Positions 1-42,192 of a stretch of DNA of 64,000 bases are shown in pieces. The number at the start of each line of letters is the position of its first letter. Within the stretch, counting starts at the first letter, position 1. The notes under the pieces were generated by a model, which was not told the origin of the DNA, did no database searches, and saw nothing but the letters and a program-made list of their open reading frames with translations. Position numbers and translations under genes: made by a program. Location: contig NZ_JAUSTE010000004.1 of the NCBI RefSeq assembly GCF_030812675.1, forward strand, positions 124,001 to 188,000, read 5' to 3'. The stretch is from Sinomonas atrocyanea (GTDB taxonomy: Bacteria > Actinomycetota > Actinomycetes > Actinomycetales > Micrococcaceae).

Positions 1-2740
1 GCGAATAGATGGACCCGTGGACCTCGTGCACCCCGGTGGTCGGGGACCAGCAGATGATGCCAGAGGTGTAGTCCTGGCACGTGCCGGTGCCCACGGCGTA
101 CTCAGTGGAGAGGGCCTGGCCGAGCGGGGACGCCCACGTTCCTGCACCGATCTTCTGTGCGTAGGCGGCGACCGGATCGTTGACTCCGTACCCGGTGAGC
201 ATGACCTCCTGGGCGCTGGAGCCGTCGTCGGCCGTGATCAGGTAGTACGTGTCCGCGGTGCCGGCCTGCCCGACCGCCGTCGGGGCGAACGTCACGCTCT
301 GGAACACGGAGTCCCCGGGCGGGATGCTCAGGCCCTCGGAGACCGGGGTCGTGGTGCTGAAGACGCCCTGCGGGGCCTTCGCCTTGGTGATCGTCATCGG
401 GATGTTGCCGGTGTTCTGGATCTGGAATGAGCGGGTCGAGGACGCCCCCACCGCGACGTTGCCGAAGTCGAGCGATGCGGGCACCTGCAGGTGCGAGGCG
501 CCGGAGATGGAGGTGGCGCTGATCGGAACCGTCACTCCCCCGAGGTTGCTCGTCACGGTCAGCGAGTCGCTGACGGTGGCCGCGGCCGTCGGGCTGAACG
601 CGATCGACACGGGCACGGAGGCGAGGGGCTGGATGGTCGCCCCCACGGCAGGCACGGTGGCGGGGTCCGCGACGAGGCTCGCGGTGGCGGGCAGGGTCAC
701 CCCGGTCACGGAGACCGCCGTCGTGCCGGTGTTGACGATGTTGACGGTCTGGCGGCTGATCGTCCCGGTCGGGACGTTGGCGAAGGCGAGCGACGTCGGG
801 GTGGCGCCGAGGCCGTCCTTCGTGCCGATCCCGTGGACGCCCAGCAGGTCCGTCTCACCGTCGGAGGTCTTCACCGTCAGCGAGCCGTCCGATTCCCCGG
901 TCGCCGTGGGGGCGAAGGTCACGGGGAGGGAGAGGCTCGCGCCGGAGGCCAGGGCCTTCGGGAGTGCCACCGACCCGATCCCGAACGGAGCGGCCGTGGT
1001 GATCGAGCTGATCGTCACCGCACGCGTCGCCGTCATGGTCACCGTGGCGGTCCCGCTCGCGCCGACGGCCACCTGGCCCAGGTCGCCGCCGGTCGAGCCC
1101 ACCGCGGCCGACGTCGGGATGCCGAACGCGAGCACGTTGCCGTCGCGGGTGCCCACGTACACCTTGCCGCCGTTGGTGGCGACCGAGGTGAACTTCGCCG
1201 CCGTCCCGATCGGGGCGCTGAAGACCTGGGCGAGCTTGCCCGTGCTGTCCGGGATGGCCCGGTAGGCGCGCAGCTGCCCGTTGGTGCCCGTCCCGTTGTC
1301 GGTGTAGACGACCCACACGAGCGCCGTGGACGGGTCGGTGCCGGAGGAGGTCACCACCGGGGACCCGGACGAGAACCCGAAGGTCCCGCTGGACGTCCCG
1401 ACCGAGGCGAGCTGGACCCCGCCGGTGCTCGTGGGCACGAGCTTCGAGGCGCGCAGGTAGCCGCTGTTCTCGACCTGGTAGACGTAGCCGCCCTGGGTGG
1501 TGCCGAGGAACGCGGACCTCCCCCAGACCCCGTTGTACGGGCCGGCCGTGTTCACCACGGCGTCCGTGCCGCCGGCGCCCTGGGCCATGCCGCCCAGATT
1601 GTCCCGGTCGAGGAGGTAGATGTGGCCGTCCTTGCCCGTCTGCACCATCAGGTGCGGGTGCGCCGAGGTGCCGTACCCGTCGGGGACCGCCATGGGGCTG
1701 CCGGAGCCGAGGTCGGCGTCGTTCTGGTTCAGCTTGACGTTGGCGGCGGGGCTGAAGAAGTCCTTCGCCGTCAGGTTCCCGTCGGTGCCGACCTGCAGCC
1801 GGACCACGGACTCGGCCAGGGTCGAGGGCGGGGAGGACCCCGCAGACGCCTGCGGGGCGATGCCGTTGCCGGTCGTGAACAGGATCCGTCCCGGGCCGTC
1901 GGAGACGAGGCCGCCGCCGGACTGCCAGATGCCGCCCTCGGCGTTGCTGACCCCGGTCTCGGTGGCCCACATGGTGGTCTGCTTCCCCGCCGTGGAGACC
2001 CCGACCACGTAGCCCACGAACGGGTTGTAGTCGCAGTGGCTCGCGAACCCGGCGTAGACGACCCCGCCCATCAGCAGCAGGCCCGGCCGCTGCATGGCGG
2101 TGAGCGCGTTGAACGGATGGGTCGGGTCGTTGGTCGGGGCCCCGTCGATCAGCACCGGGAACCCGGCCCGCTCGGTGCCGGTCGCTACGTCGATCGAGTG
2201 CATGTACCAGTGCGGGAGCTGGGCGTTCGCGCCGTCGTTCGTCTTCGCGGTGAGGAAGACGCTGTTGGTCGCCGCGTCGTAGACCGGGGTGGAGGTGATG
2301 CCGATGTTGGGGACGAGGTCCCCGCAGCTCACCGTGGAGGCGGGCCATGCGGGACCGACCGAGCGGGTCCACTTCACCGCGCCCGTCGTGGCGTCCAGGC
2401 CGTAGACCGCGTTGTTCTCCGTGGCCGCGATGACGGTCTGGCCCACCACGAGCGGCTGCGCGTACACCTGCCCGTTCAGAGCGGTGGAGAACAGCTTGCC
2501 GAAGTTGGTGGACCCGACGGCCGCCGGGGAGAGGGCGCTCTCGCTGCTGTCCCACCCGGTGCGCATGCTGTCCTGGTCCACGGTGCCGACGTCCGCGGAG
2601 GCCGTCGTCGTCCCGGCGAGCAGCGCCGCACCCGCGAGCACTCCTGCCAGCAGGGCGGCGACGGCCCGGCGGGGCGCGTGGACCGTGCCGCGCCGGGCAC
2701 GGTGCCGGCCGCGGATCCGTGGGTTTCCGATGGGCTCCAT
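1..2740 (-). CDS. Secreted beta-propeller / Ig-like / LGFP-repeat surface protein (partial)
   Basis: About 913 codons are visible and the C-terminus lies beyond the left edge. ATG at 2740 is preceded by a GGGGGAG ribosome-binding site. Residues 1-49 are a signal peptide: Arg-rich n-region, Ala/Leu core, cleavage expected after Ala-Ser-Ala. Residues about 55-535 resemble a PQQ-like (quinoprotein type) propeller, with repeated blade motifs such as VYGLDATTGAVKW and VYVGTRDGNVLAFG. Residues about 540-850 are choice-of-anchor-D/ASPM-SPD-2-Hydin-like Ig repeats (LDFGNVAVG, FSPTA). The last visible 55 residues begin LGFP repeats (YAQKIGAGTWASPLG, then WSPTTGVHEVHGSIY), which are associated with the actinobacterial cell wall. 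It is probably a cell-surface protein. No enzyme activity can be assigned, because no quinone ligands are recognised. Confidence 0.85.
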   Translation of the reverse strand, partial: MEPIGNPRIRGRHRARRGTVHAPRRAVAALLAGVLAGAALLAGTTTASADVGTVDQDSMRTGWDSSESALSPAAVGSTNFGKLFSTALNGQVYAQPLVVGQTVIAATENNAVYGLDATTGAVKWTRSVGPAWPASTVSCGDLVPNIGITSTPVYDAATNSVFLTAKTNDGANAQLPHWYMHSIDVATGTERAGFPVLIDGAPTNDPTHPFNALTAMQRPGLLLMGGVVYAGFASHCDYNPFVGYVVGVSTAGKQTTMWATETGVSNAEGGIWQSGGGLVSDGPGRILFTTGNGIAPQASAGSSPPSTLAESVVRLQVGTDGNLTAKDFFSPAANVKLNQNDADLGSGSPMAVPDGYGTSAHPHLMVQTGKDGHIYLLDRDNLGGMAQGAGGTDAVVNTAGPYNGVWGRSAFLGTTQGGYVYQVENSGYLRASKLVPTSTGGVQLASVGTSSGTFGFSSGSPVVTSSGTDPSTALVWVVYTDNGTGTNGQLRAYRAIPDSTGKLAQVFSAPIGTAAKFTSVATNGGKVYVGTRDGNVLAFGIPTSAAVGSTGGDLGQVAVGASGTATVTMTATRAVTISSITTAAPFGIGSVALPKALASGASLSLPVTFAPTATGESDGSLTVKTSDGETDLLGVHGIGTKDGLGATPTSLAFANVPTGTISRQTVNIVNTGTTAVSVTGVTLPATASLVADPATVPAVGATIQPLASVPVSIAFSPTAAATVSDSLTVTSNLGGVTVPISATSISGASHLQVPASLDFGNVAVGASSTRSFQIQNTGNIPMTITKAKAPQGVFSTTTPVSEGLSIPPGDSVFQSVTFAPTAVGQAGTADTYYLITADDGSSAQEVMLTGYGVNDPVAAYAQKIGAGTWASPLGQALSTEYAVGTGTCQDYTSGIICWSPTTGVHEVHGSIYS

Positions 2741-2980
2741 GAGCAGGCTCCCCCTACCCTCGCCGCCGCTGGCGGGGTGCCCGCGGCGTGATAGAAGGAG
2801 CGTAAAAATTGGGGCCCATGGGGCGCCCGAGTAATCCGTACCCGTCTTTTCGGGTACTCCGCGGGCCCCTACTCGGGGGATTTCGGACCGGGTACGCAGG
2901 GTCCGGCGAGGGGGCCACTGGCGGGGTACTCGGCCGCGGTGGTCGGCACTACGGGTGCCGGTGGGGTCTCCGCAGAGGAA
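2741..2980. promoter_or_regulatory. Intergenic region with GGGTAC repeats upstream of the LGFP protein
   Basis: This gene-free stretch separates the surface-protein start from the terminator of the bkd operon. It holds a short A/T-rich run at about 2790-2812, unusual for the window and a plausible promoter zone for the minus-strand gene. A 7-bp inverted repeat GTACCCG/CGGGTAC (2838-2844 and 2851-2857) is followed by further GGGTAC copies at 2890-2895 and 2934-2939. Three related TACTCsGsG strings are also present. The repeats could be operator sites, but no known regulator motif is recognised. Confidence 0.35.
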
Positions 2981-3020
2981 AAGCCCGGCCGGCCCGCGAT
3001 TCCGGGGGCCGGCCGGGCTT
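2981..3020 (-). terminator. Terminator after bkd operon
   Basis: Perfect 15-bp inverted repeat (2981-2995 with 3006-3020, AAGCCCGGCCGGCCC and its complement) with a 10-nt loop. It starts 9 bp beyond the E2 stop codon and is followed on the minus strand by TTTTCC. Confidence 0.85.
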
Positions 3021-3029
3021 CCGGGGCGG

Positions 3030-4487
3030 TCACACCATGGTGAGTACCATGCCCGGATCGGCGAGGACGGCGCCGACGTCGGCGAGGAACCGGGAGGCCT
3101 GCTCGCCGTCGACGAGGCGGTGGTCGAAGGAGAGCGAGAGCGTCATGACCTGGCGCAGCGCGACCTCTCCGCCATGCTCCCAGGGGAGCCTGCGGACCTG
3201 GCCCATGGCGAGGATGGCGGCCTCGCCGGGGTTCAGGATGGGCGTGCCGGCATCGATCCCGAAGACCCCGATGTTGGTGATCGAGATGGTCCCCCCGGAC
3301 AGGTCCGCCGGCGCGGTGCGGCCCTCCCGCGCCGTCGCAGCGAGGTCAGAGATCGCCCCGGCGAGCTCCGCGAGCGAGAGCTCCTGCGCGTCCTTGATGT
3401 TCGGCACCATGAGCCCCCGGGGCGTGGCGGCCGCGATGCCGAGGTTCACGTAGTGGTACTGCACGATCTCCTGCGCCCCCTCGTCCCAGCGCGTGTTGAG
3501 CGAGGGGCTCCGGCGCAGCGCGATGAGCACTGCCTTGGCGACGAGCGTGAGCGGGGTGACCTTCTGGCCCGTGAACGCGCGGTTCTCGCGCAGCCGCCCG
3601 ATGAGCTCCATCGCCGGGGTGACATCCACGGTGAGGAACTCGCTCGCGTGGGGGGCGGTGAACGCGCTCGCGACCATCGCGGCCGCCGTCTGCCTGCGCA
3701 CGCCCCTGATCGCGGTCCGGGATTCGCGGACGACGCCGGCGGCCGGCGATGCGGCCGGCGCGCCTGCCGCCGGGGCCGGGGCCGGGGCGGCCGAGAGGCT
3801 GCTGTCCGGGGCCGTGCCGGCCGCACCCGTGCCGATCGAGGCGAGCACGTCGTCGCGCGTGATGAGGCCGCGCGGGCCGGTGCCCTCGAGGCCTCCGAGG
3901 TCCACCCCGAGGTCCTTGGCCAGCTTGCGGACGGGAGGGGTGGAACGGGGTCGCTCCGCGGGGGCGGGCCTCGGCTCCGCTGCTGCGTCCCCACCGAGCG
4001 CTGCGTGACCGGTGCGCTCCGCTGCGCTCGGCGGCCGCCCCGCAGCCGTCGGCCCCTCCCCCACCACGGTCAGGCGCGCGCGGCGCGCCGGCCGCGCCCC
4101 GGTCTCCGGCATGGCGCCGTAGCCGACGAGCGTCGCCTGGCGCCGGGGGGCCTCCCCCGCCGCGTCCGAGGACGTCGGCGTACCGGCAGCGGCGGGCGCG
4201 CGGCCGGCGTCGGCCGCCACCTCGAACTCGGCGATCGGCGCGCCGACGGCCACGACGTCCCCCGGCTCGGCGAGCAGCGCGGTGACGGTGCCGGTGTACG
4301 GGCTCGGGAGCTCGACGACGGCCTTGGCCGTCTCGACCTCGCCGATGACCTGGTTGAGGCGCACGGAGTCGCCCACGGCGACGCGCCAGGACACGATCTC
4401 GGACTCGGTGAGGCCCTCGCCCAGGTCCGGGAGGAGGAAGGGCCGCGTCACGGGGGCCGCCCCCTGGTCGGCCGTGGCCGCGCTCAT
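3030..4487 (-). CDS. bkdC: 2-oxoacid dehydrogenase E2 (dihydrolipoamide acyltransferase)
   Basis: 485 aa. This is the core acyltransferase of a branched-chain 2-oxoacid (or pyruvate) dehydrogenase complex, moving the acyl group from lipoamide to CoA. The lipoyl domain spans about residues 17-90, with the lipoyl lysine K55 in ETAKAVVE. An Ala/Pro linker follows, then a peripheral-subunit-binding domain at about 185-222 (VRKLAKDLGVDLGGLEGTG). The catalytic domain is about 255-485, with the active-site motif DHRLVDG near 456. The ATG overlaps the E1beta stop codon (ATGA), so translation is coupled. No E3 gene follows, and a strong terminator does. The branched-chain assignment rests on the family and on the adjacent Lrp gene; a pyruvate-type complex is not excluded. 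Confidence 0.93.
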   Translation of the reverse strand: MSAATADQGAAPVTRPFLLPDLGEGLTESEIVSWRVAVGDSVRLNQVIGEVETAKAVVELPSPYTGTVTALLAEPGDVVAVGAPIAEFEVAADAGRAPAAAGTPTSSDAAGEAPRRQATLVGYGAMPETGARPARRARLTVVGEGPTAAGRPPSAAERTGHAALGGDAAAEPRPAPAERPRSTPPVRKLAKDLGVDLGGLEGTGPRGLITRDDVLASIGTGAAGTAPDSSLSAAPAPAPAAGAPAASPAAGVVRESRTAIRGVRRQTAAAMVASAFTAPHASEFLTVDVTPAMELIGRLRENRAFTGQKVTPLTLVAKAVLIALRRSPSLNTRWDEGAQEIVQYHYVNLGIAAATPRGLMVPNIKDAQELSLAELAGAISDLAATAREGRTAPADLSGGTISITNIGVFGIDAGTPILNPGEAAILAMGQVRRLPWEHGGEVALRQVMTLSLSFDHRLVDGEQASRFLADVGAVLADPGMVLTMV

Positions 4488-5503
4488 GCGTCCTCCTCCA
4501 TGCCGCTGAGGGAGTTGGGCCTGTCCAGGGCGCGGTCCACGCCGTCGAGGATGCGGTCCAGGTCGGGCAGGTGGTGGAACTCGAGCTTGGACGGCGGGTA
4601 GGGCACGTCGAAGCCGGTTACCCGCACGGGGGCATGCTCGAGGTGGTAGAAGCACCGCTCCGTGAGCACGGCGGACAGCTCGGCGCCGAGGCCGAGGGTC
4701 TGCGAGGCCTCGTGGGCGATGACGAGCCGACCCGTCTTCCGCACGGACGCCTCGAGCGGGCCGTAGTCCACCGGCGAGAGGGACCTCAGGTCGATCACCT
4801 CGATGGAGACCCCCTCGTCCGAGGCGGCCACCGCGGCGTCGAGGCACGTCTTCACCATCGGTCCATAGGCGACGAGGGTGACGTCGGAGCCCTCCGCCGC
4901 GACCCGGGCGGAGCCCATGCCGAGCCCCCCAGCGCCCGGTTCGAGCGCCTCATCGACCTCGCCCTTGTCGTGGTACCGGCGCTTGGGCTCGAGGAACACC
5001 ACCGGGTCGTCGCAGGCGATGGCCTCCTGCATCATCGTGTACGCGTCCTGGGGCGTGGAGGGGGAGACGACCCGCAGGCCGGCGGTGTGCGCGAAGTACG
5101 CCTCGGGCGACTCCGAGTGGTGCTCGGGGGAGCCGATGCCTCCGCCGTAGGGCAGGCGCAGGGTGATCGGCATGGCCACCGCGCCGCGGGTGCGGTAGTG
5201 CATCTTCGCGACCTGGGAGACGATCTGGTCGAAGGCCGGGTACACGAAGCCGTCGAACTGGATCTCCACCACCGGGCGGTAGCCGCGGTAGGCCATGCCG
5301 ATCGCGGTGCCCATGATGCCGGATTCCGCGAGCGGCGTGTCGACGACCCGGTGCGCGCCGAAGTCCTTCTGCAGGCCGTCGGTGATGCGGAACACCCCGC
5401 CGAGGCGGCCGATGTCCTCGCCCATCAGCACGACCTTCGGGTCACGTTCCATGGCCTTGCGCAGGCCTGCGTTGAGCGCCTTGGCGAACGTCATCCCGGG
5501 CAT
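4484..5503 (-). CDS. bkdB: 2-oxoacid dehydrogenase E1 component, beta subunit
   Basis: 339 aa, full length for the family. With E1alpha it forms the thiamine-diphosphate-dependent decarboxylase that acylates the E2 lipoyl group. Recognisable family blocks are VLMGEDIGRLGGVFRITDGL at the N-terminus, DTPLAESGIMGTAIGMAYRG, the SPEHHSESPEAYFAHTAGL loop, and the C-terminal transketolase-type domain with VIDLRSLSPVD. The ATG overlaps the E1alpha stop (TGATG), and its own stop overlaps the E2 start. This spacing implies a single translationally coupled operon. Confidence 0.95.
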   Translation of the reverse strand: MPGMTFAKALNAGLRKAMERDPKVVLMGEDIGRLGGVFRITDGLQKDFGAHRVVDTPLAESGIMGTAIGMAYRGYRPVVEIQFDGFVYPAFDQIVSQVAKMHYRTRGAVAMPITLRLPYGGGIGSPEHHSESPEAYFAHTAGLRVVSPSTPQDAYTMMQEAIACDDPVVFLEPKRRYHDKGEVDEALEPGAGGLGMGSARVAAEGSDVTLVAYGPMVKTCLDAAVAASDEGVSIEVIDLRSLSPVDYGPLEASVRKTGRLVIAHEASQTLGLGAELSAVLTERCFYHLEHAPVRVTGFDVPYPPSKLEFHHLPDLDRILDGVDRALDRPNSLSGMEEDA

Positions 5504-38363: not shown

Positions 38364-38975
38364 ATGAACGGGAACTGGATCTTCTGGGTCGTCATCTTCT
38401 GGTGGGTGATCCCGATGGTGATGCGGAAGATGCGACAGTCCGGGCCCGGCCGGCCGCCCTACCCGCAGGACCGCGAGAACCAGTACGGGCAGGACCGGTA
38501 CAGCCAGGGCCAATACGGCCACGGCCAGTACAGCCAGAGCCAGTACAACCAGGGCCAGTACAACCAGGGCCAGTACCCGGGATACCCGCAGACGCAGACG
38601 CCCCCGCCTCCGCCCTCTCCGCAGGGCCAGCACCCGGAGGGCCAGCTCCCGGAGGGGCACCGCACGGCGGCGCCGGGCCAGCCGGACGTGCCCTGGTGGC
38701 AGCAGCCCCTGCCGCCCGGGTTCCCGGGGCAGCCGGCGCCCCAGTCCCAGCCACGGCCACAGGCCCAGCCCGCACCCCAAGCCGGGCCGGCACAGCAGCC
38801 GCGGGCGGTGCCGCAGGCCCCGCGGATTCCGGAGCCAGCCGAGACGAGTGCGCCGGATGACGCCCCGCAGGGCTACCGCGCCAAGAAGCTCGCCGAACTC
38901 GACAGGCAGTTCTCCGACCAGAAGATCTCGCTCGAGGAGTACATGAAGGCGCGCAGCGAGGTCATGCGCGGGTGA
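38364..38975 (+). CDS. SHOCT-like membrane protein with Gln/Tyr repeat region
   Basis: 203 aa. One membrane helix at residues 4-20 (NWIFWVVIFWWVIPMVM). Residues about 38-75 are tandem GQY-x-Q/QYNQG units (about eight tyrosines at 4-6-residue spacing), a prion-like low-complexity segment. Residues about 76-160 are Pro/Gln-rich. The C-terminal ~35 residues (YRAKKLAELDRQFSDQKISLEEYMKARSEV) form a SHOCT-type short helical domain. This could be a membrane-tethered scaffold that oligomerises. The 3' end overlaps the convergent ferredoxin gene by 14 bp. Confidence 0.8.
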   Translation: MNGNWIFWVVIFWWVIPMVMRKMRQSGPGRPPYPQDRENQYGQDRYSQGQYGHGQYSQSQYNQGQYNQGQYPGYPQTQTPPPPPSPQGQHPEGQLPEGHRTAAPGQPDVPWWQQPLPPGFPGQPAPQSQPRPQAQPAPQAGPAQQPRAVPQAPRIPEPAETSAPDDAPQGYRAKKLAELDRQFSDQKISLEEYMKARSEVMRG

Positions 38976-39189
38976 CGCGCCGCAGCAGGAGCGCCTGCAC
39001 GGGGCACAGGTCCACCGCGTCCTGGGCGGCCGCGGCGAGTCCGCCCGGCACGGGCACGTCGCGCCCGCCGCGGCCCACGGGGTAGCCCCAGTCGTCGCGG
39101 ACGAGGAGCTCGGGGAGGAGCTCCGCGCAGAGGCCCCTCCCCTCGCAGCGGGTGAAGTCGACGTGCAGCTCCAGCTGGGTGCGGCTCAT
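38962..39189 (-). CDS. 3Fe-4S-type ferredoxin
   Basis: 75 aa. Cysteines C15 and C21 (CEGRGLC) and C62 (CPVQAL) match three-cysteine [3Fe-4S] ferredoxins of the kind serving P450s, with R18 where a fourth ligand would be in a 4Fe-4S protein. It is an electron carrier, translationally coupled (ATGA overlap) to the NuoF-like flavoprotein before it and the last gene of the five-gene redox operon. Its 3' end overlaps the convergent SHOCT gene. Confidence 0.88.
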   Translation of the reverse strand: MSRTQLELHVDFTRCEGRGLCAELLPELLVRDDWGYPVGRGGRDVPVPGGLAAAAQDAVDLCPVQALLLRRVTRA

Positions 39190-40403
39190 CGCTGCCACCC
39201 CTGGGCGCAGGAGCCGCCGAGGTGCGCCTGGACCTCGTCGCGGAACACGGACAGGGTGCTCCGGACGAAGCCCGCGGCCCCGTCCGGGTGGCGGCACGCG
39301 CCCCGTCCGGTGACGAGGCCGGCAAGCCGCTCGGCCTCCGACGCGAGCCACGGGGTGCGCTCTCCCCCGGCGATGCGTTCCAGGACCGCTGCCATGGCGG
39401 GCAGGCCGAACATGCAGGGGCCGCACTGCTGCGCGGAGCTGTCGGCGAGGTAGCGGGCGATCGGCGCGGCGGCCGCCAGACCGCAGCGGCCCTTCGCGAG
39501 CACGAGGAGCACCCCCGCGCCGGGACGGCCGCCGTAGCGGGCGAGGCCCGCCGTCGTCATGGGTTTGTCGAACCCGCCGCTGGGGACCCATGCACCGTGG
39601 AAGCCGCCCACGAGGACGGCGGCAGTGGACGCCGGGTCCGCTCCCCCGGCCTGGAGGATCTCGCGGACGGTCACGCCGCCGGGGACTTCGAGTACCGCCT
39701 CGGCAGGGACGTCCCCGGACAGGCTCACGAGCCGGGTCCCGGGGTCTTCCCTGCTGCCCGTGCTGCGGAACCAAGCGGCCCCGTACCGGGCCACGAGGGC
39801 GAGGTGGGCGAGCGTCTCGATGTTGTGCAGGAGCGTGGGCTGCCCGCGGTACCCGCTGCTGCTCAGCCGCACGGTCGTGTCCCTCGGGAGGGCCGGGCCG
39901 CCCTCGAGGGCGGAGACCACCGCCGTGGCCTCCCCCGAGATGAACGTCCGCGGTGCCTCGACGAGCCGCACGCGGCGGGCGTCCCGTCGGTCCGCGACGG
40001 CGCCGCGGACGGCCGCGAGCGAGTCAGCCGGGGCGTAGAGGAACAGCTGGGAGGCTCCCAGCGCCTCTCCGGCGTCGAGGAGGCCGTCGAGCACGAGGTG
40101 TGGGGCCCGGCGCAGGAGTGCGGCGTCCTTGCGGCTCACGGGCTCGCCTTCGGCGCCGTTGGCGATGACCACCGGCCGCCGCCCGCTGATGGAGGAGAGC
40201 TTGCGCCACGCGGGGAAGCCGGCTCCGCCGCGGCCGGCCAGTCCCGCGGCCTCGAGTTCGGTGAGCAGGGTCCCGCGGGTCCAGTCGTCCCGGCGCGGGC
40301 CGTAGGCGGCTTCGTGCGCGACCCTGCCGGGGCCGGCGGCGGCGAAGAGCCGGCCGGTCCCGAGGGCCGGGAGCCGGACGTCCGTCTCGGTGGTCGCTTC
40401 CAT
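39186..40403 (-). CDS. NuoF-like flavin/iron-sulfur oxidoreductase
   Basis: 405 aa. It has the 51-kDa-subunit pattern of complex I and formate/hydrogenase diaphorases: GRGGAGFPAWRKL (about 58-70), NGAEGEPVSRKD (FMN site), ISGEATAVVSALEGG, the SLBB-like region (LEVPGGVTVREILQAGG) and a C-terminal cluster motif QQCGPCMFG with C327, C330 and C370. Of the four NuoF cluster ligands (C-x2-C-x2-C ... C) the third position is Gly333, so the cluster may be a 3Fe-4S or be lost. Predicted role: NAD(P)H dehydrogenase exchanging electrons with the adjacent ferredoxin and membrane heme protein. No other nuo genes are near. Confidence 0.85.
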   Translation of the reverse strand: MEATTETDVRLPALGTGRLFAAAGPGRVAHEAAYGPRRDDWTRGTLLTELEAAGLAGRGGAGFPAWRKLSSISGRRPVVIANGAEGEPVSRKDAALLRRAPHLVLDGLLDAGEALGASQLFLYAPADSLAAVRGAVADRRDARRVRLVEAPRTFISGEATAVVSALEGGPALPRDTTVRLSSSGYRGQPTLLHNIETLAHLALVARYGAAWFRSTGSREDPGTRLVSLSGDVPAEAVLEVPGGVTVREILQAGGADPASTAAVLVGGFHGAWVPSGGFDKPMTTAGLARYGGRPGAGVLLVLAKGRCGLAAAAPIARYLADSSAQQCGPCMFGLPAMAAVLERIAGGERTPWLASEAERLAGLVTGRGACRHPDGAAGFVRSTLSVFRDEVQAHLGGSCAQGWQR

Positions 40404-40416
40404 GGTCCCGTTCCTC

Positions 40417-40971
40417 TCAGACTCGCCCGAGGCGGGCCGCGGACGTCTCGGCGAACCCGGCGCTCAGGCGCCAGATCACGGCGCAGGCCACGGCGCCGGC
40501 GCAGCCCCAGGCGTACGCCTGGAACCAGAGGTCCACGGCGTTGGTCCCGGTGCCGAGAGCGTGGGCCAGGCCGATGGGCCACATGCCGTAGGCGGCCCAG
40601 TGGACCGCCCTGAACACCCGCTGGCCGATGCGCTGTCGCAGCAGGCCCGTCACCACGAGGGCGAGGACGAGGTCCAGCGCCACGGTCCCGAGTCCCACCC
40701 AGAAGGGATTCCAGGCGGCGATGAACGGCACCACGACGTCGGGGAGCGCCAGCTTGGCGTGGGGGTCGAGCATGAGGGTGCCCACGTGCAGGGCCAGGAA
40801 GACTACGGCGGTCAGGGCGGTGCTGCGGTGGACGAGCGCCACGGAGAAGCGGGGCAGGCCGAGCAGGGTGCGTCCGGAGCGGCTCACGATCCCGAGAACG
40901 AGGACGAGGGTGAACAGCCCCAGTGAGACGATGCCTCCGGCCCGTCCGATGGCCCACATGATCTCGTTCAT
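40417..40971 (-). CDS. Ferric-reductase-like di-heme membrane protein
   Basis: 184 aa, about five to six helices. H48 and H62 (VHRS, LALHVG) in one helix and H124 and H137 (VHWAAYG, LAHALG) in another are spaced 14 and 13 residues, which fits two stacked b-hemes as in the ferric-reductase/NOX membrane domain. No FAD or NADPH domain is attached. The missing reductase part would be supplied by the NuoF-like and ferredoxin products of the same operon. The ATG overlaps the apbE stop (ATGA). This suggests transmembrane electron transfer toward the cell exterior. Confidence 0.85.
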   Translation of the reverse strand: MNEIMWAIGRAGGIVSLGLFTLVLVLGIVSRSGRTLLGLPRFSVALVHRSTALTAVVFLALHVGTLMLDPHAKLALPDVVVPFIAAWNPFWVGLGTVALDLVLALVVTGLLRQRIGQRVFRAVHWAAYGMWPIGLAHALGTGTNAVDLWFQAYAWGCAGAVACAVIWRLSAGFAETSAARLGRV

Positions 40972-41867
40972 CCGCGCACCCCCGCCACGGGCACGGCGTC
41001 GATGTCGCGGCGCGGCGCGGGCCAGCCGCCCAGCTCGATCACCCCGCCGTCGTGCCTCACGAGGCGCGCAGGGAGGCCCAGCTCACGCAGCCGCGCCACC
41101 GCGCCGGTTCCGCGCACGATGGCCGCCGTGCTGGCCATGTTGGCGCTCAGGCAGTCGGGGGCGGCGACGGTGACGCTGCGCCACGCGGCGGGGGCCGGGA
41201 GCGCCGTCCAGGGATCGAGGATGTGGTGCACCCCGGCGCCGCGGCGGCGCTTCTGGGTGCTCGAGGTCGCCATGGCCCACCCTCCGCCCAGGCTGACCTG
41301 GGTCGCGGGGTCGCCGGGGAGGTCCTGCACGAGGACCTCCCAGGCCGCGCGGCCGGCCGTGGCGATGTCCCCGCCGAGCGAGACGAGGACCGAGGTGCCG
41401 AGTTCGTCGTGCACCTGGTGTGCTGCCAGGTCGGCGGCTGCCGCCTTCGCTGTCGCACCGAGGTCGAGGACGACGCCGCGCGGCACGCTCAGCTCGTTCC
41501 CCTCCAGGGTGATCTCCCGCCAGCTCTCGGCCGGCCGGGGCCCTGCCGCGGGGAGCGCCCCTGGGTCCAGCGTGCCGAACCCGAGCGTGGCGAGTTCGCG
41601 TCCGAGGGTGGGGACGACGTCGCCCCCGCTGCGTTCGGCCACGTCGAGGGCGGCGCGCACGAGGTGCGCGAGCAGGGGGCTCGCGGTGCCGCCGCCGGCC
41701 CGCTGGAGGAGGGCGAGCTCGGAGTCGGCGCGGAAGCTGCTCGCCGCCTCGTCGACGCGGCGCAGGAGTGCCTGGACGCCGGCGAGGGCGGCGGGGAGCG
41801 CCGAGGGCTCGGCGACGGCCACGCGGCAGGCGCAGGTGAATGCCTCGAAGTCGGCGTGCGCCGCCAT
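40968..41867 (-). CDS. apbE: FAD:protein FMN transferase (ApbE)
   Basis: 299 aa. ApbE fold with the conserved VVLDLGATAKAAAADLAAH block (variant of DLGGIAKG), VSLGGDIATAG, HHILDPWT (metal/diphosphate region) and a C-terminal APDCLSANMASTAA. The enzyme attaches FMN covalently to a Thr/Ser of its partner's FMN-binding domain, normally outside the cytoplasm. No lipobox or signal peptide is visible here, so it may act inside or export may depend on another route. It starts 1 bp after the stop of the anchor-protein gene. The expected FMN-bind partner is missing from the operon. Confidence 0.88.
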   Translation of the reverse strand: MAAHADFEAFTCACRVAVAEPSALPAALAGVQALLRRVDEAASSFRADSELALLQRAGGGTASPLLAHLVRAALDVAERSGGDVVPTLGRELATLGFGTLDPGALPAAGPRPAESWREITLEGNELSVPRGVVLDLGATAKAAAADLAAHQVHDELGTSVLVSLGGDIATAGRAAWEVLVQDLPGDPATQVSLGGGWAMATSSTQKRRRGAGVHHILDPWTALPAPAAWRSVTVAAPDCLSANMASTAAIVRGTGAVARLRELGLPARLVRHDGGVIELGGWPAPRRDIDAVPVAGVRG

Positions 41868-41868
41868 G

Positions 41869-42192
41869 TCAGGAGCCCGACGACTGGCCCATGGGGCCGC
41901 CGCCTTGGGACGGCGCGAGGCCGCCCTGCTGGCCGGACTGGTACTGCTGGTAGCGGCTGTGGCGGCTGCCGCCGTTGTCCAGGGGGCTGTTCGTGGTCCC
42001 GCCGTCGTCCTGCCCGGTGACGCCGTTCTGGCCGGAATCGTCGGAGCCGCCAGTGTTGGTGACGTTCTGGACCACCGCCGGGACGTAGACGGCGGCGGCG
42101 ATCGCGCCGACGCCGAACACGCCGCTGGCGCCGACGGCCATAGCGGCCAGGCGCGCCCGGCGCCGGCCCGCCTCACGGATGCTCTCGCCCAT
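41869..42192 (-). CDS. Membrane-anchored Gly/Ser/Gln-rich protein, first gene of redox operon
   Basis: 107 aa. A basic N-terminus (RRRARLAA) and one helix (about 14-40) are followed by ~65 residues rich in Gly, Ser, Gln, Asn and Asp. D63-G-G-T-T-N-S69 is a degenerate resemblance to the ApbE target D-x-x-[ST]-G-A-[ST] but lacks the central Gly-Ala. No folded FMN_bind domain follows. A strong AGAGGAGG lies 5 nt before ATG 42192. It opens the operon with apbE, the di-heme protein, the NuoF-like protein and ferredoxin. Function not recognised. It could be a flavin carrier remnant, a linker or an assembly factor. Confidence 0.75.
   Translation of the reverse strand: MGESIREAGRRRARLAAMAVGASGVFGVGAIAAAVYVPAVVQNVTNTGGSDDSGQNGVTGQDDGGTTNSPLDNGGSRHSRYQQYQSGQQGGLAPSQGGGPMGQSSGS

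Follow-up and report, generated by a model that had tools for sequence, protein, structure and literature searches.

A five-gene membrane redox operon of Sinomonas atrocyanea with a small tethered protein as putative C-terminal flavin carrier

The element analysed here is a group of five genes on the minus strand (42192-38962) of a 64,000-nucleotide (nt) stretch of Sinomonas atrocyanea DNA (assembly GCF_030812675.1, contig NZ_JAUSTE010000004.1, positions 124,001 to 188,000), called the window below. The first gene (41869-42192) encodes a tail or "anchor" protein of 107 amino acids (aa) with a charged N-terminus, one transmembrane helix at approximately residues 15-40 (42073-42150; N-in by charge), a disordered linker rich in Ser, Gly and Gln, and the C-terminal heptapeptide MGQSSGS (codons 41872-41892). 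It is the proposed flavin carrier, and its terminal Ser (codon 41872-41874) is the proposed acceptor of flavin mononucleotide (FMN). It is followed by a 299-aa ApbE-family FAD (flavin adenine dinucleotide):protein FMN transferase (40968-41867; PF02424, E 7e-41, 141 bits) and a 184-aa ferric-reductase-like, MsrQ-like di-heme membrane protein (FRD; 40417-40971; PF01794, E 1e-8, 35.7 bits vs. a cut-off of 28), whose gene overlaps apbE by 4 nt. A NuoF-like flavoprotein of 405 aa (39186-40403; PF01512 and PF10589) and a three-Cys ferredoxin of 75 aa (38962-39189; PF13459) complete the group. The junctions in gene order are 1, -4, 13 and -4 nt, so a single operon is likely; promoter- or terminator-like sites were not detected between 38900 and 42400 by a simple consensus scan. 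A first interpretation made from the letters alone (the sequence-only reading) had proposed this tightly packed set of redox genes, and both the packing and the redox parts (invariant FRD His, a STEAP/NOX-like model, a three-Cys ferredoxin) were borne out. The operon is probably a transmembrane electron conduit, in which the operon's own ApbE would attach the last carrier, FMN, to the Ser that ends a disordered, membrane-anchored tether. This is based on features found by comparing sequences: a conserved tail linked to ApbE, three known ApbE substrate families without a match in many genomes that have this system, an Asp-to-Asn replacement in ApbE, the heme-type His residues and the three-Cys iron-sulfur proteins.

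The tail protein of the window matched no Pfam or NCBIfam family, and none of the tail proteins scanned (window, L184, L185) matched a Pfam family over the cut-off. The NuoF-like protein was present in 18 of 120 family genomes, own genome included, and the ApbE, FRD and ferredoxin genes accompanied it in all 17 others (loci L024-L040; L035 is cut at the apbE start). The arrangement is not due to chance. At the other 16 family loci, the neighbour of apbE (in L025, of a second FRD copy) encodes a small protein that has a single hydrophobic helix and a low-complexity linker. The linker sequences vary greatly, yet the ends are alike, reading SQGGGPMGQSSGS (window), PGNGGSTSGKSSGS, HGRSSGS, NAHSSGS, HGHSSGS and QGSTGGS, with synonymous codon changes among relatives. 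The FRD of the window matched four named loci, all from Sinomonas, the closest being 97% identical in FRD. A tail was present in L043 and L044; none was present at L045, but a tail gene (L117) lies at another place in that genome. L046 duplicates L024 and was not counted. In L025, from the same genus, a second FRD copy lies between the tail gene and apbE (2735-3289 and 4422-4976), and in L044 the order is tail-FRD-ApbE-NuoF-ferredoxin.

For the class, the FRD alignment matched 130 of 394 genomes. One region was taken from each of 80 of these, chosen by hand for family spread and weak matches, and extra ApbE loci from some of the same genomes and from two Sinomonas genomes were added. By one rule applied to all, 75 loci carried ApbE, FRD and NuoF-like genes on one strand; four were dropped, namely L035, L152 and L158, where the contig ends at the tail place, and L119, a longer copy of L080. 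Among the remaining 71 loci, 63 have a helix-bearing open reading frame (ORF) ending in [ST]x[GA]S, four have [ST]GA[ST] in roughly the last 40 residues (L096, L122, L126, L127), and four have neither form (L080, L123, L124, L153); in the case of L080, a tail gene ending VTVSRGS is located on another contig. Candidate tails were listed by position and helix with the end ignored, except for the downstream tails of L103, L149 and L150, which were found using the motif itself; where more than one ORF came into question (L087, L098, L157), the fit of any one was counted. The tail loci of the class span about 23 families, as counted by family codes. Two tail genes each, with unlike linkers and the same kind of ending, were observed in L101, L149 and L150.

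The anatomy common to the relatives comprises an N-in helix, a hypervariable Ser/Thr/Gly/Pro linker and a near-fixed C-terminus [ST]-x-[GA]-Ser-COOH, represented by SSGS in the window. For residue statistics, 76 tails were chosen by [ST] three residues before the acceptor, so that agreement on that pattern is by choice. The last four residues are SSGS in 26, SGGS in 18, TGGS in 12 and others in 20. Position -6, the Asp place of the published ApbE motif, is His in 27 of 76 tails vs. a background of 1.05%, and position -5 is Ala or Gly in 61. Within the linkers of the same tails the ending pattern occurs at 147 of 5421 positions (2.7%), and a chance ending in a Ser/Gly-rich linker was rejected on this frequency. 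An artefact of the ribosome-binding site of the next gene was rejected as well, on the basis of the synonymous codon variation in the ending and its retention both where FRD comes next (L025, L044) and at loci whose tail gene is found downstream or at another place (L103, L149, L150, L206).

The phylum sample gave matches in 72 of 396 genomes, and 20 loci from 19 of these, all belonging to other classes, were examined. Strict tails were found at nine loci (L186, L187, L188, L194, L201-L205), and L200 has SGGS plus one residue. Other endings in Ser (TATS, SATS, GTS, RTS, TAVS) occur at L189, L190, L193 and L195-L197. The four annotated operon genes were also found on plasmids of Rhodococcus qingshengii (NZ_CP077418.1) and Cnuibacter physcomitrellae (NZ_CP020716.1). 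A tail ORF lies directly upstream in each case, ending PHARSAGS and SSHATTKGS, respectively; it is missing from the feature tables of both plasmids, which are themselves incomplete.

The acceptor motif of ApbE is given in the available text of PMC12052999 as D-x-x-[ST]-G-A-[ST], with FMN attached to the last residue. According to the same text, replacement of Asp by Ala has a minor effect, a change of Gly or Ala approximately halves flavinylation, Ser is poorer than Thr, and a seven-residue peptide suffices for ApbE; engineered seven-residue FMN tags are described as performing best at protein termini. The window ending S-S-G-S shares with this motif the acceptor Ser and [ST] three residues before it. 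The exact 7-mer ends one of the 76 tails (L107, ADSNTGAS), and near-motif ends are found in L110 (HGMSGAS), L111 (DASSNAS) and L096 (HATSGATS). In sister systems, whose ApbE, FRD and NuoF-like proteins are more distant, TGAS or SGAS lies shortly before the end (L122, THTTTGASGVIK; L126, NTSTGASGAKP; L127, HATSGASGG); L125 combines TGAS with a TGGS end. By comparison of these endings, the near-motif tails and sister systems appear to bridge the window tail to the published motif, and the comparison as a whole argues strongly for the tail as an ApbE substrate.

The linkage of the ending to ApbE was followed at loci of other composition. FRD and NuoF occur without ApbE in the stretch at 23 loci; a tail gene adjoins them at four of these (L043, L078, L079, L093), the genomes of which have ApbE elsewhere, and at the other 19 it does not. 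L045 is one of the 19. Among the other 18, the whole-genome ApbE state was looked up for two: L115, from the only one of 40 class genomes without an ApbE match (G343), and L116, in whose genome (G328) both ApbE and FMN_bind gave matches away from this locus, on other contigs or at other places. Separated arrangements occur in G123 and G279 (tail, FRD and NuoF at one place, ApbE and ferredoxin at another) and in G121 (tail and ApbE apart from FRD-NuoF-ferredoxin). Of 24 loci with ApbE but not FRD plus NuoF, six show the ending (L101, L104, L117, L128, L130, L141), one shows a near-terminal motif (L129) and 17 show neither, four of the latter being FMN_bind loci. Two-component genes, searched with one query pair, were found in the stretch at 8 of 71 tail loci, at none of 19 loci without ApbE and tail, and at one of four FMN_bind loci; this result was not used.

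The C-terminal peptide could instead be a docking, assembly or processing signal, e.g. for FRD, with ApbE flavinylating another, unrecognised protein. The ending is short, so that any linear motif is conceivable, and G, S, R, A, Q, H, T and N all occur at position -2. Nevertheless, the ending accompanies ApbE and is mostly absent beside FRD-NuoF-ferredoxin modules lacking ApbE, and several endings equal or approach the published motif. Moreover, D..[ST]GA[ST] was not found in the FRD (76), NuoF-like (71) or ferredoxin (67) domains of the tail loci, where the shorter [ST]GA[ST] occurs in three NuoF-like proteins and one FRD. A pure signal function is thus judged unlikely.

Some further arrangements were observed at these loci. 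L115, L116 and L159-L174 are FRD-NuoF-ferredoxin modules without ApbE or an adjoining tail, the FRD of L116 lying inside a 475-residue open frame. In L114 and L178 (family f44), ApbE stands beside FRD, and an upstream protein with a hydrophobic segment ends K[YW]GYVLT[QL][VI], with neither tail nor FMN_bind; the ApbE partner in these genomes may be of yet another kind. In L128, L129 and L131, without FRD in the stretch, a Glu-type ApbE adjoins a lipoprotein-like protein (AGCSS/AGCGS start, GGGGWG stretch) ending HGQSKQS, HGQSKSS or HSHGS, possibly another domain-poor ApbE partner.

The absence of an FMN_bind gene from the operon, pointed out by the sequence-only reading, was confirmed by the Pfam scan of its products and by the genome-wide FMN_bind search proposed there; the search did return one match elsewhere (PF04205; G000:C6:41582-41803), beside a second ApbE. 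This C6 gene comes after a frame resembling by eye a ferric reductase with an NAD-binding part and is taken as a separate, ordinary system with its own ApbE. As the only FMN_bind match of the genome, it could be considered the real carrier for the operon. This is highly improbable, since it adjoins its own ApbE and follows that ferric-reductase-like frame, and since FMN_bind matches are lacking altogether from nine family-set genomes that carry the operon and from 23 of 40 class genomes. The same genomes led to rejection of the notion that relatives carry a canonical FMN_bind gene lost only here; the relatives have the tail protein. In total, 10 of 22 family-set genomes had no FMN_bind match. 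Nine of these (G111, G050, G076, G115, G007, G113, G054, G059, G064) have the operon and one ApbE match, and the tenth (G006) has no NuoF-like match. Of the 23 class genomes, 12 have exactly one ApbE match and a tail gene (G350, G393, G423, G312, G279, G123, G477, G414, G131, G165, G174 and G203, the last only 70% complete). Together, 21 genomes thus contain a single, tail-linked ApbE match and no FMN_bind match; G351 is a further case of this type left out of the 21, and in G154 and G490, which lack FMN_bind, the single ApbE is accompanied by partners of other kinds. In 23 genomes (own, the 21 and G351), DUF3570 was not found and DUF2271 gave no match over the cut-off and one weak match in G165. 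The earlier suggestion that the flavin carrier is missing or encoded elsewhere was not supported, as the anchor itself bears a conserved C-terminal peptide of the ApbE acceptor type. Most likely the gap is filled by the anchor protein, and the companion suggestion of a flavinylated protein of a new kind is probably correct.

The ApbE alignment profile-matched 13 solved ApbE sequences, and the fold was predicted well, with a predicted local distance difference test score (pLDDT) of 89.8. Asn243 of the window enzyme (codon 41139-41141) aligns with the metal-binding Asp in the three solved ApbEs for which an alignment was shown, and its place corresponds by position to D280 of E. coli ApbE. As far as the available source texts go, D280 and T284 of the E. 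coli enzyme bind metal, Asp301 of FmnB, taken here as the equivalent residue, binds both Mg ions, and FmnB lost most or all of its activity when metal ligands were replaced by Ala. Among 101 ApbE rows, this column is Asn in 66 rows beside C-terminal tails, in one beside a near-terminal motif and in 11 without a tail in the stretch (L035, L080, L118-L121, L123, L124, L152, L153, L158). It is Asp in all four FMN_bind-linked rows and two others, Glu in 15, Lys in one and a gap in one. In a tree of 96 ApbE rows from which this column was excluded, 76 Asn rows formed one clade, equivalent to one change (Shimodaira-Hasegawa-like approximate likelihood ratio test, SH-aLRT, 92; quick search, no bootstrap). 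An ApbE facing a C-terminal carboxylate next to the acceptor may, from this pattern, dispense with its own Asp or be unable to bear it. The association is not strict, because some partners of Glu-type ApbEs likewise end in Ser (L125, L128, L130, L177).

The loss of the Asp in the whole clade, together with the importance of metal ligands in the available FmnB text, would also agree with an Asn-type ApbE that is no longer a flavin transferase (a FAD hydrolase or a degenerate enzyme) and with a tail that is not flavinylated. This is regarded as quite improbable. All 66 Asn-type enzymes with a neighbouring C-terminal tail retain the second His of HHxxDP as well as the Thr that follows the Asn, and 59 of them retain the H-H-D set. 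The fold prediction is also good, and a strict, substrate-like tail is retained alongside.

The four His residues of FRD (H48, H62, H124, H137; span 40561-40830) are proposed as axial ligands of two b hemes and show no variation across 76 tail loci and 19 loci without a tail. The FRD model (pLDDT 85) had its best fold matches with STEAP2, STEAP1 and SpNOX, with NOX5 and DUOX lower, at E values of 0.024 or worse; it places two putative heme-His pairs in a helical membrane bundle, as in NOX, STEAP and MsrQ. In the NuoF-like proteins of the tail loci, the three cluster Cys (C327, C330, C370 in the window) are kept in 69, 69 and 66 of 71 rows, respectively, and the place of Gly333 is Gly in 69 of 71 rows, the remainder being gaps in each case. 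Complex I NuoF has a further cluster Cys at the Gly333 place. A His two residues after the last Cys was found in 61 of 66 ungapped tail rows and in 19 of 19 others, the cluster type being uncertain. With 178.9 bits, the window protein is below the cut-off of the NCBIfam NuoF equivalog (558.65). NAD(P)H is the predicted donor because of the family of this protein. All 67 ferredoxin rows show three Cys, and the cluster is probably [3Fe-4S].

The mean net charge of the tails is +3.2 before and -0.8 after the helix, and the N-side is the more positive in 74 of 76; the tail is therefore predicted N-in and C-out. The linker after the helix measures 37-172 residues, with a median of 71 (n = 71; last 260 residues scanned). 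Judged by hydropathy only, none of 64 ApbE proteins has a hydrophobic start or membrane helix, and no signal peptide was seen in that of the window; ApbE is therefore probably cytosolic. The FMN_bind-linked ApbE of the own genome showed no export signal by eye either. A cytosolic ApbE would fit a flavinylated tail that stays in the cytosol, its helix being N-out, and relays electrons from the ferredoxin to the inner heme. The charge bias in 74 of 76 tails opposes such an orientation, which is considered rather unlikely. For a C-out tail, flavinylation probably occurs before export, since ApbE is apparently cytosolic.

With the tail as the last carrier, electrons would pass from NAD(P)H via the NuoF-like flavoprotein, the [3Fe-4S] ferredoxin, the inner heme and the outer heme to the tethered FMN, and from there to an acceptor in or beyond the cell wall. 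Direction, topology and acceptor are inferred. With a median of 71 residues past the helix, the tether would allow the flavin to move back and forth between outer heme and acceptor; the acceptor would most likely, though tentatively, be Fe(III) or other diffusible oxidants. Taken further, the tails may constitute a class of flavoproteins in several classes of the phylum that has no flavin-binding fold and carries FMN on the last residue of a tether, a naked flavin on a string. The dedicated ApbE would then have lost its Asp because the C-terminal carboxylate of the substrate supplies the charge of the metal site, so that only true C-termini are modified. This extended proposal is possible, and we regard it as doubtful.

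Several points weigh against a flavinylated tail. The window peptide MGQSSGS has Met in place of the motif Asp at -6 and S-G in place of G-A. The partner ApbE might be inactive or changed, given the lost metal Asp and the impaired Ala mutants of FmnB in the available text, and it has no export signal, yet the tail is predicted outside. NqrB/RnfD (PF03116) are ApbE substrates without FMN_bind; other ApbE substrates were not found by the FMN_bind, DUF3570 and DUF2271 searches, and PF03116 was not searched. L123 and L124, both from genome G140, have ApbE, FRD and NuoF without a fitting tail alongside, and L153 offers just an ORF ending SGGSG downstream. Six ApbE-FRD loci without NuoF (families f18, f40, f44) are off-pattern, e.g. 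HSSSHSS, TTSHGSR and KYGYVLTQV. In other classes, L191 and L192 do not fit, and L198 and L199 gave no tail. Finally, the loci are related, so the counts are not independent; binomial and Fisher figures, which take no account of this, were given no weight.

The frame upstream of the operon on the same strand is one that we take to be metX-like. Downstream, a 203-aa protein encoded on the plus strand (38364-38975) is convergent with the ferredoxin gene and has a hydrophobic start and Q/Y/G-rich repeats (SQGQYGHGQYSQSQYNQGQYNQGQY). It gave no Pfam match over the cut-off; its C-terminus looks SHOCT-like. The gene adjoins the ferredoxin gene in L024, L025 and L044, too.

In the available text of Meheust et al. 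(2021; PMC8238504), MsrQ-like flavinylation systems are described as having a PF01794 di-heme protein encoded beside apbE, mostly in Actinobacteria, and 31 such clusters include a NuoF-like PF10589 protein. The window operon shares the PF01794 gene beside apbE; it differs in the absence of an FMN_bind gene and in the unfolded tether proposed as the carrier. According to that text, a cluster was retained only if its ApbE, FMN_bind, DUF3570 or DUF2271 gene encoded a signal peptide or a lipidation site. The window operon has no such feature, as judged for ApbE by hydropathy only and with FMN_bind absent, and tail systems of this anatomy are expected to fail this filter. Measured against the available description, the window operon and its relatives are a new variant of the MsrQ-like systems. 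FMN_bind carriers such as that of C6 resemble the tail in their N-terminal hydrophobic segment, low-complexity linker and ApbE acceptor motif; they differ in having a domain round the flavin, whereas the tail proteins scanned have neither FMN_bind nor another Pfam domain. The FMN_red proteins, as described in the available part of a study in mSystems (2024; PMC11334425), are flavinylated on an unstructured C-terminal extension, as demonstrated by co-expression and Ala mutants. The acceptor position is thus similar, but FMN_red has its own flavin-binding domain and the tail proteins show none. In the Flavin-tag work (PMC12052999, in its available text) a seven-residue terminal peptide is enough for ApbE; that tag is engineered, whereas the tail would be natural. 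NADPH oxidases and STEAP reductases are like FRD in fold and His pattern, but FRD has no fused flavin or NAD domain and is proposed to be fed by the NuoF-like protein and the ferredoxin. A C-terminally flavinylated tether without a flavin domain was not described in the literature searched, of which titles and abstract openings were covered in part.

If the proposed flavinylation is correct, the tails would be a new substrate class for ApbE, which family searches did not reveal: it has no domain and a hypervariable linker, and its gene is missing from the feature tables of the two plasmids looked at. The proposal would explain the role of the sole ApbE in many actinobacterial genomes without FMN_bind. 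It would also mean that a covalent flavin need not sit in a protein pocket to function and can reach through the Gram-positive wall on a swinging arm.

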